The notes below the pieces were generated by a model. That model was not told the DNA's origin. It searched no databases and worked only from the letters and a program-made list of their open reading frames with translations. From contig CM034144.1 in assembly GCA_019914995.1 (NCBI GenBank), positions 2,635,489 through 2,699,488 on the forward strand: 64,000 bases of DNA, written 5' to 3'. The stretch comes from Acanthochlamys bracteata (Eukaryota > Streptophyta > Magnoliopsida > Pandanales > Velloziaceae). Shown here in pieces: positions 5,526 through 41,404 of this stretch. Position numbers and translations under genes: made by a program. Within the stretch, counting starts at the first letter, position 1. Each line of letters begins with the position of its first letter.

Positions 5526-6239
5526 GATACTCGAGGGATACTAGAGGGATTTGCCAATGGATGACTTCTACCGAATGAGGCCTCCCATCTGCAAGTTCTA
5601 CTTTTAGAGGCCGAACCGATTCATGAGCTGGATATAAATTATGTGTGCTCCCTGAATCAATCAACAAGAAGACTTCTTGTCTTTTTATTTGGCCTACAAC
5701 ATACAAAGCATTTGAGAACCTACCAATACATTTGGCGTTAAGGGACAAGCTTGCACCTTCGACTTACTCCTCTTCTTCTGTTGCAGATTCATTCTCTTTT
5801 TCTTCTTCCCTTAAATTCTTGACAAAGATGGAATATAATCTGGTAGCGTGCCCACGTTTGTATTTGTCATCACAGCGAAAGCACAATCCTTTGGTGCGCC
5901 TGCTATTGATGTTTGCTACTGACAGGGATGAAGTCTTGGGTCTAGAAATTTGCATAATGTCAGTAGATGGGCCAACTAGAGTCCTGTTAGCTGAGATAGA
6001 AGTATTGTTTGGCTGCTAGAATGAGCTGAATCGACTACGCTGCTAAGCATAGTCTGTAGAGAACTTGTGTTCGTACATTCAAGCCAGTAAGTATTGTGTC
6101 TAGAGGTCCTCTGGTCTGGAAGTCATAACATCCATGGGCAGCCTTTTTAATAGACCTTTACAGATTCTGCCTATCAAATCTTTCTTAGTAGTGGATGGAA
6201 GTTTTGTCCTAAGTTCTTCGAAGACCGCCTGGTAATCTC
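5526..6239 (-). pseudogene. Gypsy gag zinc knuckle and aspartic protease remnant
   Basis: On the minus strand this part reads a gag tail, then a retroviral-type knuckle (KGLCFRCDDKYKRGH), then a glutamate-rich linker, then a protease with the active-site motif LIDSGSTHN and VELADGRPHS. Stops and frameshifts interrupt it. It continues the gag fragment at about 9000-9600, from which it was separated by the PIF insertion. Confidence 0.75.
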
Positions 6240-6242
6240 TTA

Positions 6243-8971
6243 TGGTTTGTTTGGATATAGGAGTAATAAGTAAGAAAAAATAAGAGTAAGATTAAATAAG
6301 AGTAAATTATTCGAGTGGATATAAGAGTAAAATAATAATTTAATATCGTCTTGTTTGAATATAACAATAAGAGTAATGAAGAGTGAATAATTATTCTTTT
6401 TTAGTAACTGAAGAGTAAATAAGAGTAATTTTAATAGAAAGTCTGAAATATCTTTTTGTATTTGGTATGCATGTTGGAGAAGTAAGTATAGTTTCTTATT
6501 GTTTAGTGTGCTTGGGACAACTTTCAGGAGTCATTTAGGAGTGAGAAATATTGGTGTTGGTGCTGTGTAGCGTGTTGGTTCTCTCTCGGTGCACACGCCT
6601 GAGCTAGATAAGGAGAGCGTAGATAAAAAATTACAGGACATCAACATGTAAACACAACAAGTTGGGACTGATTACATCTACCATGTAATAACATGAACAA
6701 TCTTCAATTGAACAAATAGAAATAATATCAATTCAAATGCTTCAATTGATCTTCAAACAAGCTTTAATTGAACTTATATTCTTTACAAACAGACAACATA
6801 CACTAAGTAAGAGAGAACAAACAATATTTGCTTACTGCAATCAAATTTTCATATCTATGTATCCAGAATACATCATTCATTAGGATGTCAAGCATGATAA
6901 TAACTAATGATTAGACTAAATTAAAGGCATACATACATATTATGTAGGTCTGATTTATAAAGATACATTCCTCTTAATTTTTCTTACGAAGACCTAAATG
7001 TATTTTCTCCACTGTAAGTCATGTAGAGGAAACCGTCTTCATCCTTGTGCTCCTCATAGATGGCAGCATCATAGCAACTACAATGAACAAAATCAATAAT
7101 CAGATATGCAATCTATATAAACAATAATCAGAGAACATGCAAGAAGAGGACAACAACGCAAGTACCAGTATTGGTTCCTTTTTCATATCGGATTCCTAAT
7201 ATATCCCCACCCTTGCTTGTGCTACACACTTCAAAAGCTTCCTACATCACTCACCATCTTAGAGAGCTTAATCAGAAGCACTCAATACCCCCTCATGAAT
7301 GGAAACTTCAACACTTTAAATATGTTCCTAACAGGACAAATCAAATGCCATAACTTTCTCGTTTGTCTAAGATTACTATATAAATATCACTACCAAGAAT
7401 AACAAGCAAGAATTATATGCTGAGCAAATCTAGTAGTCCGACTTCATAGCAGTTGCAGTGAACAAATCAAGTTCCATTCCAATAGGCAGGCAAGTACTAT
7501 CTTGAGCCTCTCAGATAGGTAGGCAAGTACTAGAGGGTACCTACTTCTCAGTTAGGTAGGCAAGCTGAGTGGTAATAAGTATTGTCATATTATTGAGCAA
7601 CTCTACAAGAACTAGAGGGTACCTAAGCAGCAACCATTAACACCTATTGAGCTTTACACAAATTACCTTAGCAATATGTTCACAGTACCTATTTCATTGG
7701 AAAAGCATAACAACATTAACATCTATGACAGACACATAACAGTTATACCAAAAGCAAGCAGAGCTAGTGCAGAAGGCTCCAGAAAGCATATAAAAAGTAC
7801 TAAAAACAATTATCTGTGATAATTAAAAAGAAGTACTAAAAATAAAAAGATATAACAAAAAACATATAAAGAATACTAAACTAGTTATCTGTGATAATTA
7901 AAAAAGACCATTAAGTACTTCAATACAAAATGCAAGTTGTGCAAAAACAAGTCAAGCATTCTGTTTTAATAGGGTCATATTGAATCATATTGTTACTGAA
8001 ACTTTCAAGAATACATCAACTATCTATACATATCAGCCTTCAACGCAACTACACATAAAAAGAACAACTACATGCAGGCTAACAGTCTTAAATAATGATA
8101 ACATTGCTTCCGCCACCCCAAATAACAACAGAGATTAAATAGTTAAGATTTACAATTAGATGGAGCAACTGAGTATCCGCCTCAAAATTTATGGATTAAA
8201 TAAGTAGACTTCAAGCTTTAGCTTCTAGATATAACATTCTATATCAAGAGGACAGAGAAATAGAACTGAAGATACATATGATTCAGACCAACTACAACTA
8301 CAGAAACAATAAAACAACAACAACAATACATCGTTACGTTTAAAAGAAAGACGACAATATCTTCAGCACTCAAAAAAATCCATTGAAGCATAACCTCAGA
8401 ATTTTAACCAGAGAATGGATCATTACAATAAACATCAAACAACTCAAATCAAGATGAATCGCAGACTCAAACTCACATAAGAATAAATCAACAAACATCG
8501 AATCGTTCTACACAAACAACATAAAGTAAAATTGATTAATCGATTGATTGATTTCGGTAAATTGAACGTACGTTGAATAGATTGACGACGAGGTGATCGG
8601 GAGAGAAGAGAGATCTGTGATGTAAGGAAGGAAATACATAGCAGAGTCAATGGTGAGATCAACGAGCGGCGAGAAGCGGCGCGGTAAGATCAGCGGCGGC
8701 GAGTGAGGAAAGAGTGAGAAATGAGAAGAAAGTCAAATGGTATTTTAAATAAGTAAGATGGGAACTTAAAAATTTAGACAGCTGCAAAATTACTCTTACT
8801 CTAGTTTACATCCCACATTTGGGTCTAGCTGATTAATCTTCATATAAGATTAATTGAGAGAATTTTTACTCTCCGTTAATCTTATAAAATCATTGCCAAA
8901 TAAGAGTAATAGAGAGTAATTCGTTCACTTACTCTTTATTGCTCTCATTTACTCTCAATCCAAACAGATTG
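6243..8971 (-). mobile_element. Non-autonomous PIF/Harbinger element carrying an ATG8 exon fragment
   Basis: The terminal inverted repeats are TGGTTTGTTTGGAT (left) and CAATCTGTTTGGAT (complement of the right end). Their inner parts are rich in GAGTAA. The element is flanked by TTA at 6240-6242 and 8972-8974, the standard 3-bp target of PIF/Harbinger and Tourist elements. The right subterminal region, including a GCGGCGAG-rich patch near 8660-8710, resembles the right end of the coding PIF element at about 41050-41404. No transposase is present. The interior contains an ATG8-like exon at 6984-7077, and the rest is AT-rich with no recognised ORF. It sits inside the gag region of the gypsy element, so it is younger than that element. 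Confidence 0.8.
6984..7077 (-). pseudogene. Captured last exon of ATG8 (autophagy ubiquitin-like protein), broken
   Basis: The minus strand reads [20 protein letters not shown] and then TF, which is the conserved C-terminal end of ATG8. A splice-acceptor-like TTCATTGTAG precedes TTGCTATGATG at the upper edge, so the copy includes intron plus exon and came from genomic DNA, not mRNA. Compared with the family's MMSAIYEE, one base is missing in the serine codon, which shifts the frame. The glycine that ATG4 exposes for lipid attachment is replaced by arginine (TFG becomes TFR), followed by SS and a stop at 6984-6986. It cannot give a conjugatable ATG8. No other ATG8 exon was seen in the element. 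Confidence 0.82.
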
Positions 8972-8989
8972 TTAATGACTTGATTTGAC

Positions 8990-9660
8990 GTAGTTGTTGT
9001 AGTAAAAAGTTAGGATTTTCGAATGCCATCGGACTAAATCACATCAAGAGTGTGTCCTTAAGGTCCTCCTAGGTATATTGGGACCTATCATGTTAGAAAT
9101 TTTGGTACCATCTATTCGCTTCCGCTTGCATATACATGTAGCTATTCCTGCTAGATCCCACAAGTTAACATGAAAAGATTTAAAATACTTCTATGCTGAA
9201 TAGATCCACTTGTTTGGCTCAGATCCATTGAAGTAGGAAAATTTGTCTTTCCCTTGGAGCTTGGTAAAAGGTTCATAGTTATAAATTTAGGTGTTCTTGT
9301 GGGGCCTGCGTTCATTGGGTAGCTGTCTTGTAATTGTTCTTGGAAGAGGTTTTGTTGCTGGCTGTTTCTATGCAAAGTTTGATTCCTGTGAAAGCTATCA
9401 TGGTTTCTGGAACTAGTTGGCTAGTAGCAATCTTAACTAAGAAAATCTTTGAAGCTGTTGTGATGGTTCGCGTTGGACAAAGCTTCCTGTTCTTGCTAGC
9501 CGAAGGGTTGTTTTGATAGCTCTCCTTCCATCCTCCGGAATCTTGCTGATGGGGTGATGGTGATCTCATGGTTCTTGATGTGATGGTGGATGATGGTTCA
9601 AGGATCCTAGGGACCCCGGGGCAATGGCTCCGTTGTTCTTCATAAACGGGGACTCTGATA
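8990..9660 (-). pseudogene. Gypsy gag N-terminal remnant
   Basis: Minus-strand frames give LQGKDKFSYFNGSEPNKWI, followed after a stop by KYFKSFHVNLWDLAGIATC. This matches the usual plant gypsy gag pattern (FPxFNGxDPxGWIxRAEQYF). The N-terminal side is rich in Q, N and S. Several stops are present. The coding stretch is cut at 8972-8974 by the PIF element. Confidence 0.6.
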
Positions 9661-38456: not shown

Positions 38457-39760
38457 TTATGCATTATAATCCCTCCATATAGCTTGCGCAATTGCATCCC
38501 TAATTGACTCTCCTCTTCGTGTATCCTCATCATGATCATCATCGTTATATACTCTATCTACTTCAATGGGTTGGTTTGCAAGTTCATCATCTATCTCTCT
38601 AAGAAGGTCCTCATCTAGGTCTTCACTCATTAAAAAGTTATGCATAATACAATATGCTATTATGATTTTTGTTTGTGTCTCAACACGAAAGTAAGATTCA
38701 TCCGAACTTGATATGATGGGAAATCTTTTCTGAAGTACGCCAAATGCTCTTTCAATTGAATTACGTAACGATGCATGTCGATGGTTGAATAATTCTTGAT
38801 AATTTCTTGGTGGATTTAACGAGTACTCTTTTAAATGGTAACGAACCCTCTTATAGGGTGTTATGAGTCCACTCCTTGTCATGAAACTAGCATCCACAAG
38901 GTAGAATTTCACTAGAAAAAATATCTTATGTTATTATAAAGATTATACTTAATTCAGATATTCATTATAGCTCATTATTACCTTGTGGGATTCTTAAAGG
39001 ATGTCGTCTTCTTCATGCCTTTATAATTCTATATTCTGATGCTGAACCTTCCCAACCAGCTAACACATAGGTAAACTTGAGATCAAAAGTACAAGCAGCC
39101 AGTACATTTTGTGTGGGATATTACTTTCTACCACGATATCTAGATGCAACGGTAGGAGAAACTTTAATTCGAATATGTGTTCCGTCAATTGATCCAATAC
39201 AATCCTGATATTATAATTTATTACTTAATAAGTTATATAAAAACATCTATTATAATTAAAGTTTAGGGGATTTCTTTACCTTTTACAAAGGATAATATCT
39301 AGAGCTATTGAATATTTCTGTAGGAATTTGTGATCCATCAAATTGTCGTACGAATTTATCTGCGAACTCTATAATAGCATGTAACACATTATGAAAATGA
39401 CGACTGATAGTTTCTCCGGATTGTTGGAAAACACTGTGTGCTAAACGATCCCTTAGCTTTTGTCCAATAATACACATAAACTTAATTACTTGTTCTTCTA
39501 CGCTAGACCGCTATGTAGGTTTTGAGACCACTAAATATCACTAACAACTCACACCATTTTGCAAATGCCGTCGGACTCATCCGGCAAATGCTACGACATC
39601 TAGCCCCACTAGCAATTGAACTAAGTACTTCACGTCGAATCTTTTCTCTTTCTTTCATAACGTCGGGTCCAACTAAAGTTACATTTATTTTACGTTGGTT
39701 TTGTAATGCCACATAATAAACAATAACACAAGCTGAAAATGCCATAGCCAAACGACACAA
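38457..39760 (-). pseudogene. PIF/Harbinger DDE transposase (ALP1/HARBI1-like), frameshifted
   Basis: Segments in order on the minus strand: CRSICRMSPTAFAKWCELL, CIIGQKLRDRLAHSVFQQSG followed by ETISRHFHNVL, IGSIDGTHI with the first catalytic Asp, KYYLVDASF with the second Asp, and RNSIERAFGVLQKRFPIIS with the Glu. HNFLMSEDLDEDLL and an acidic tail end it. This is a DDE_Tnp_4 transposase. A one-base frameshift near 39507 separates KTYIAV from the VEEQVIKFM that should follow. Further stops or introns lie between 38930 and 39280. It is therefore not expected to be active. Confidence 0.82.
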
Positions 39761-41404
39761 TGCAAATGCTTAATCAATTTATCATCCATAGTGAATATGA
39801 TGTAAAATCTGCACTCAGAAAAAAAAAAGAGAGAAAACAGTTAAAAGCATGCAAAGTTTTTAAGCCAAGGATTATCAACAAAAGAAAAAAGAAGAAAAAA
39901 ACTAGCTTGCAAAGATTCCCTAGAAGCTTAAGGATTGCAAGGAGAACGAAAATTTAAAAACCATTAAAGCATGTTTTAAGAAAAATAACTATTTTGAAAG
40001 TTATTACAAAGTACAATAAAGATAATAATTTAGCATGGCCAAATGAGATTATCATGGTCAAATGAAATCAAGATGATCATTAGCGTCATATTCTTCACCG
40101 GGTAACTACTTATGCATCATAGTCTTCACCAAATAACAACACGAGTAGAATTAAAATACATGAACCAGCAAGCTAAGTGGCAATGCAAAATATCAATTCT
40201 TTAAAATGTGATTTATGTTGAGAAGGTTAACAGTAATAAAGAGTACAAAATTTTTCAACAAGTAGTGAGTGTTTGCTTTATGTTAAGTCGCTGCCCAACG
40301 GAAGCTCAAGTAAAACAGCCTATATGATCAACCACCAAACCTATAATCCATGTATTTTTAGAAGTACCAAATACTGAATTAAATAGCAGAAAATAAAGCA
40401 AAAGAATGTGATCTTTATACACGATGGAAAATACCAATATCAGCAATAAGAATATAGCAAAAGAATGTAGGAAGCAAAAAAAATACTTTTAAAAACATAC
40501 GTTTTTTATCACGAAATGCATGATCAAGATGACAATTATCATGAGCACACCTATATTTCCCAAATATGGATAGCAATCAAAATTTTCTTACAAAACAACT
40601 CAAGTAATGCAACACAAAGAACCCCAAAGGCACAAATTAAAAGCTCAGGAAATGGAAGTTCAAAAATCTACCAAGGTAACACAGAGAACCCCAGAGGCCA
40701 ACGAAATAGGAAAGATGCGTGTGACTGAACCAAAGAAGAAATCAAAGCAATGCGGTTATAATCTTATATTTCAATGATCCATATTTCTCCAGTAAGATGG
40801 CATCAAAATAAATATTAACTTTCAACAGAAACAATTAACAAATATTAACATTTCAATCGAAGAAAAATTGAAGATGAAATCAAAGAAGAAATCAGGCGAA
40901 ATCAGACGAAACTAGACGAAATCTTTTTAAGAAATTTTTTTTTAAAATCTAAGAAAATCGAAGAAATCTCAAGATTCGAAAAATTGAGTTCGACGGAAAT
41001 CTAACAATGATATCAAGATGAGATCAATGAAAAAGCAGTGAAAATAGAATCGAAACCAAAACTGTACCTAAAGACGGCGGCGAGCGGCAACGAGCGGCGC
41101 GGCAAGAGCAGAGGAGCGGCAGGATGAGTGACGAAAGAGTTGAAGAAAAAAATGAGATAGATTCGTTTAACATAATACAGGCGTAAATAAAACGAAATAA
41201 TATGGATAAGAAGGAACTTCATATTTTAAACAATAACAACATTAATCTTACTCTAAGTTACACCCCAATATAGGGTGTAACGAATTACAGGTTAATAAAG
41301 ATTAATGGGGAGACATTTTACTCTCCATTAATCTTATTAATTTATACCAAACTAGACCTAATTACTCTCCATTGCTCCATATTCCTCTCAATTCAAACAA
41401 TACG

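Follow-up and report, generated by a model that had tools for sequence, protein, structure and literature searches.

The window, by which we mean the whole 64,000-nucleotide stretch of Acanthochlamys bracteata DNA that was analysed, carries at 6243-8971 a non-autonomous PIF/Harbinger element of 2,729 bp with TTA at 6240-6242 and at 8972-8974. Inside the element lie the last exon of an ATG8 gene, on the minus strand, and further pieces of host DNA. The features of the locus and the basis on which each was placed are as follows:

6240..6242: target-site duplication TTA, left (six of the seven empty paralogous sites compared show a single TTA)
6243..8971: Pack-PIF, a non-autonomous PIF/Harbinger element of 2,729 bp (empty sites, family ends, second full copy on C6)
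6243..6699, plus strand: left terminal arm with terminal inverted repeat (first ~220 bp widely common; to 6699 with the C18 copy)
6722..7132, minus strand: captured ATG8 segment with 3' flank/UTR, last exon and 3' part of the last intron (comparison with the C10 and C15 genes)
6984..7077, minus strand: ATG8 last exon to the stop codon, with a one-base deletion and Gly-to-Arg at the lipidation site (Pfam, alignment)
7078..7088, minus strand: sequence GTTCATTGTAG, resembling a splice acceptor (its AG is intact in the window and reads AA in the element copies on C6 and C15)
7133..7383: stretch derived from a third locus (C7:3516297-3516551, 82%; sole non-element match to 7133-7240, 8 of 8 scored)
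7558..7738: interior stretch common to copies on C1, C13 and C9 that also bear family sequence (sequence matches)
7883..8571, minus strand: intron 1, captured from a small-plant-protein gene with two exons (source loci at C18:6.164 Mb and C16:6.317 Mb)
8572..8666, minus strand: 3' part of exon 1 of the small-plant-protein gene, GT donor kept, one-base deletion (C18/C16 comparison)
8667..8971, plus strand: right terminal arm with terminal inverted repeat (sequence matches to family copies)
8972..8974: target-site duplication TTA, right (empty-site comparison)

The ends of the element were determined from sites that share its flanks. Seven of the nine non-self matches to the left flank were compared, right flanks included, and all seven were unoccupied, with the flanks joined without the element; a single TTA was found at the join in six of them and TTC in one. 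Since the same flanks occur without the insertion at all seven sites, the element corresponds to 6243-8971 with TTA on each side, and the TTA-flanked PIF element of about 2.7 kb in the original prediction had been placed right to the base. Terminal inverted repeats (GGGTCTGTTTGGAT...) are present in the window copy, where the outermost bases are degenerate. TTA or TAA duplications were detected in all six family copies examined with both ends, and these ends read GGGTCTGTTTGGAT and ATCCAAACAGACCC, give or take single bases. The first ~220 bases of the left arm occur at no fewer than 40 genomic places, the window included (40 of 254 candidates scored), and the match between the left arm and the C18 family copy stops at 6699. 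A comparison of the left arm with a plasmid collection gave no match, a result without weight for a plant element. The flanks (5942-6242 and 8972-9272) are themselves old repeated sequence, with 10 matches to the left and at least 40 to the right, the window counted. Elsewhere in the window, 41213-41340 is a second piece of the right arm of this PIF family and is 75% identical.

The longest stop-to-stop frame within the element comprises 96 codons, and no transposase was found inside it, neither in its frames nor as DDE_Tnp_4 among the matches listed. To assign the class, relatives of the element were considered. The relative at approximately C9:6274349-6281932 has both arms at 74-75% and, between them, a DDE_Tnp_4 domain with four stops. 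In the relative on C2, the right arm (80%) is accompanied by a Myb/SANT domain scoring 30.9 bits (Pfam cut-off 23.6) and by a DDE fragment. Judged from these sequences, the evidence for PIF/Harbinger appears to be good proof, which stays incomplete because the C9 relative is broken with arms only 74-75% alike and the left end of the C2 relative was not found. The window also contains a fragment of a DDE_Tnp_4 (PIF-type) transposase at 38637-38927 (C19:2674125-2674415, minus strand), scoring 42.7 bits.

On the minus strand, 6984-7077 corresponds to the last exon of ATG8, running from 7077 (after ...TTCATTGTAG) to a stop codon that ends at 6984. The Pfam ATG8 model (PF02991) scores 35.1 bits on the 30-residue frame 6996-7085 (E 1.7e-8, cut-off 27), and in an HMM search of the host genome (195.5 Mb, 557 contigs) C19:2642484-2642573 is among the 15 matches for ATG8 (E 1.7e-5). 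At the DNA level, 6960-7240 aligns with the ATG8 gene on C10 with an E value of 3.8e-38. The similarity to ATG8 in these alignments lies far beyond chance, and the ATG8 C-terminus recognized beforehand on this strand proved exact in its coordinates. The splice-acceptor-like sequence proposed just upstream was likewise found in the window copy, while the C6 and C15 elements have AA for AG. In the host genome 6960-7240 has eight matches (8 of 8 candidates scored). Three belong to element copies (the window, C6, and C15 at 4.35 Mb), two to ATG8 genes (1.116 Mb on C10, 1.107 Mb on C15) and two to decayed ATG8 paralogs (C3, C17); the eighth is a locus on C7, where the similarity is confined to the part adjoining the ATG8 piece.

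The ATG8 gene on C10 is 82% identical to the element over 6831-7118 and 89% identical over 6722-6776. About 55-60 bp between 6776 and 6831 are missing in C10 and present in the element and in the ATG8 gene on C15. Because the similarity to C10 is found on both sides of this gap, the captured piece measures ~410 bp (~6722-7132), of which 7119-7132 is counted as ATG8 segment solely through its match to the C15 element. The ATG8 similarity ends well within the element on both sides. Thus the predicted ATG8 capture is real, but its size had to be corrected: ~410 bp of intron, exon and 3' flank were taken up instead of 94 bp, and the element also holds DNA of at least one other host gene. Neither of the findings named in advance as speaking against a capture was made, as the fragment recurs in family copies, the similarity does not run past the element ends and the alignment to ATG8 is significant.

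Among the host genes, the one at C10:1116 kb comes closest to the ATG8 piece (82-89%). A tree built from seven sequences, three element copies and four host sequences, parts the element copies from the host sequences with a support of 92/91, which is below the 95/80 mark of the tool. Measured along this tree, no host gene is closer to the window copy than that on C10 (path 0.20); the C15 element lies at 0.31, on a long branch of 0.22. Both the tree and the sequence of the intron favour a putative C10-type source of the ATG8 piece. In the decayed paralogs on C3 and C17 the glycine codon starts with A, as it does in the elements, so that a source other than the C10 gene is less likely but conceivable; with a CpG at this codon, repeated change would be plausible. 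These two paralogs (C3:6866560 and C17:2585532) form a collinear pair, and both are without the glycine codon at the lipidation site. Near another ATG8 gene, at C10:235 kb, a right-arm fragment of the PIF family of the element lies ~0.2 kb downstream of the last exon (locus L006 2010-2105).

Both lesions ascribed to the fragment from the letters alone, a one-base deletion and the change of the lipidation-site glycine to arginine, are present. The deletion and TTT-AGG (AGG for GGG) occur in all three element copies (window, C6 and C15), and the ATG8 genes on C10 and C15 have neither. As the lesions are common to the three copies, the fragment was broken before these separated. None of the copies has the C-terminal glycine and the intact frame that a functional ATG8 requires. 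With frame and lipidation glycine already lost in the common ancestor, it is very unlikely that selection has kept an ATG8 function. Between the window and C6 there are five changes within 6994-7077, too few for a selection test.

The right half of the interior derives from a gene for a small plant protein, of which intron 1 and the 3' part of exon 1 now stand upstream of the ATG8 piece and in its orientation. The region 7883-8666 is 86% identical to C18:6163876-6164641, and C16 gives 79% over 8129-8666; the two source loci are collinear also outside the captured part. The small protein has two homologs of 91 residues, one 60% identical over 67% of the query and the other 68% over 59%, and it could not be named, since it falls in no Pfam family and of the two homologs one is a hypothetical protein and the other unnamed. 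In the C9 element the captured exon begins at the same place and has a one-base gap identical to that of the window copy. The C20 copy also contains the small-gene piece, with two bases missing at the gap point, and in the parts compared both the C20 and the C9 copy are without the ATG8 piece. A gene for a reversibly glycosylated polypeptide (RGP) was considered as second source and rejected, because the captured sequence falls in the two-exon gene located upstream of the RGP gene. The RGP frame itself, just downstream of the small-protein gene on C16 (locus L034 2-1078), is open for 359 codons to the locus end and may be a retrocopy; its C18 counterpart (locus L033 ~290-1183) is apparently broken into several frames. 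Inside the element, a 27-base direct repeat (7803-7829 and 7878-7904) duplicates the acceptor end of the captured intron.

A third segment of ~250 bp comes from C7 and begins at 7132/7133, where the match to the C15 element ends. At the source locus a SWEET-type exon, which matches Pfam MtN3_slv, follows ~1.1 kb downstream, and no coding identity was found for the segment among its own frames.

The search for other copies, suggested together with the original prediction, located the fragment in two further elements, on C6 and C15. The C6 element is a second full copy, ~90% identical over the full length, with the same cargo, its own TAA/TAA duplication and other flanks. The full-length comparison of the window copy with C6 gives a K2P distance of 0.086 (152 transitions, 65 transversions). 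At a substitution rate of 7e-9 per site per year, which is of uncertain fit to this host, the divergence would amount to about six million years, a value that is only a guide. The C15 element is a mosaic: it has the ATG8 part, is without the small-protein gene or the same interior, and its right end is degenerate. This composition shows that the history was not one capture followed by plain copying. At C15:4347360-4352190 two family elements stand tail to tail with their right ends ~0.1-0.2 kb apart, and one of them bears the ATG8 piece. Among the private changes, 43 of 78 are C-to-T or G-to-A. In the small-gene part (compared with C18) these make up 12 of the 22 changes private to the window and 19 of the 36 private to C6; in the ATG8 part (compared with C10) the counts are 2/4 and 10/16, respectively. 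This pattern would fit what is expected of methylated DNA.

The element very probably is a Pack-PIF: its interior was built up from host DNA in several steps, after which a transposase encoded elsewhere would have moved the whole as one unit. It has no transposase of its own, its interior comes from host genes still present in the genome, and it was mobilised together with its cargo, as is characteristic of Pack-TYPE elements. The pieces may have entered when excision was followed by template switching or faulty repair, or when insertions lying side by side fused, and a PIF transposase would have moved the element. As to the order of arrival, the small-gene piece would have been gained in one lineage, the ATG8 piece would be common with the C15 mosaic, and the C7 piece would have been added in the ancestor of the window and C6 copies. 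Most likely the copies are silent today and the cargo is a silent passenger; the analysis gave no indication that it functions.

Pack-MULEs are known to contain host gene pieces from several loci within one TIR element. The present element is like them in combining pieces of several loci and differs in belonging to another superfamily, with a 3-bp TTA/TAA duplication and PIF-type ends. Pack-MULEs are also mentioned in PMC13317346. For PIF elements, transduplication of exons and introns, some common to several copies, was described in grapevine (Benjak et al., 2008; PMC2528002), and Pack-PIF was named by Gisby and Catoni (2022; PMC8903248), who also report Pack-TYPE elements that combine DNA of several loci. 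The original prediction of an ATG8 capture by a non-autonomous PIF/Harbinger element is supported, but capture by PIF elements is less novel than it implied. The agreement with Pack-PIF is close: non-autonomous elements, PIF-type ends, TTA/TAA duplications, internal host coding DNA and multi-copy families (PMC8903248). The hosts there are maize and rice and the genes are others, ATG8 not appearing in the passages considered. The Pifvine-3 elements of grapevine (PMC2528002) similarly carry host exon and intron sequence partly common to several copies; however, their host DNA is a long 5' region beside canonical PIF coding regions, whereas the element in the window has no transposase frame.

A possible but doubtful route by which the cargo was gained is local hopping, in which family elements flanking a host stretch were moved together with it; this would be a special case of the Pack-PIF explanation and is not exclusive with it. 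PMC8903248 gives such a model for Pack-TYPE elements, and the neighbouring insertions it needs are exemplified by the tail-to-tail pair on C15. However, no family terminal repeat is present within ~1.5 kb on either side of the ATG8 genes on C10 and C15 or of the C18 source gene, and the pieces match loci on three different contigs.

Two proposals give the cargo an activity of its own. By the first, the element would be a source of small RNAs or antisense RNA that lower the expression of host ATG8 genes, which from the sequence comparison we consider improbable. Of perfect 21-mers, 23 are common to the window copy and the C15 gene and 6 to the window copy and the C10 gene, the longest identical runs being 43 and 26 bases; 3 such 21-mers are common to the window copy and the decayed C3 paralog. 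However, a conserved exon alone gives such 21-mers, none is shared with the four other ATG8 loci examined nor with C17, and the ATG8 piece stands in three element copies only. The shared 21-mers thus make a small-RNA link testable, not likely.

By the second proposal, with slightly poorer prospects again, the element would have created a chimeric gene by exon shuffling: an RNA started near the right arm would be spliced from the donor at 8572 to the ATG8 acceptor at 7077 and encode a 53-residue peptide with an altered ATG8 tail. Both pieces do lie on the minus strand in 5'-to-3' order, GT and AG are kept in the window copy, and once spliced they read open for 53 codons, starting with the ATG at 8639 and continuing through the tail of ATG8. 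However, joining in frame has a chance of about one in three, and the other copies do not preserve the arrangement. C6 has no acceptor AG and no frame crosses its junction, the acceptor AG is also missing in the C15 element, and in place of the ATG at 8639 C6 has CTG and C9 has CTC. There are also five more ATGs upstream of it. When the chimera was searched against proteins of 0.55 to 1.75 times its own length only, 255 were matched, and the best 120 of these all have an ATG8 domain; the tested motifs of the other half, or TFRS, were absent from the 122 proteins examined. Carrying the idea further, a nascent exon-shuffled gene restricted to the window copy, whose glycine-less chimeric peptide or ATG8-matching RNA would dampen host autophagy, is more improbable still. 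Finally, that there was no capture and the transposon ends only seem to enclose an old ATG8 pseudogene is next to inconceivable, although decayed ATG8 paralogs do exist on C3 and C17, since it is already refuted by the seven empty sites and by the full C6 copy elsewhere with its own duplication.

We return to the Pack-PIF as the best explanation of the locus. Capture by PIF elements is a known process, and what is new here, and well proven, is an example with ATG8 cargo; within the open-licence literature searched, no published ATG8 capture by a transposon was found. The locus adds one more plant genome with PIF capture and provides a single, closely documented case: its ends are proven, the pieces have source loci, and for each piece there are copies that have it and copies that do not. 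It also offers a clear place to test whether conserved exons, once captured, feed small RNAs against ATG8 and other essential genes. Should the cargo be silent, which the evidence suggests, the finding would mainly be a caution for the automatic annotation of ATG8 genes.
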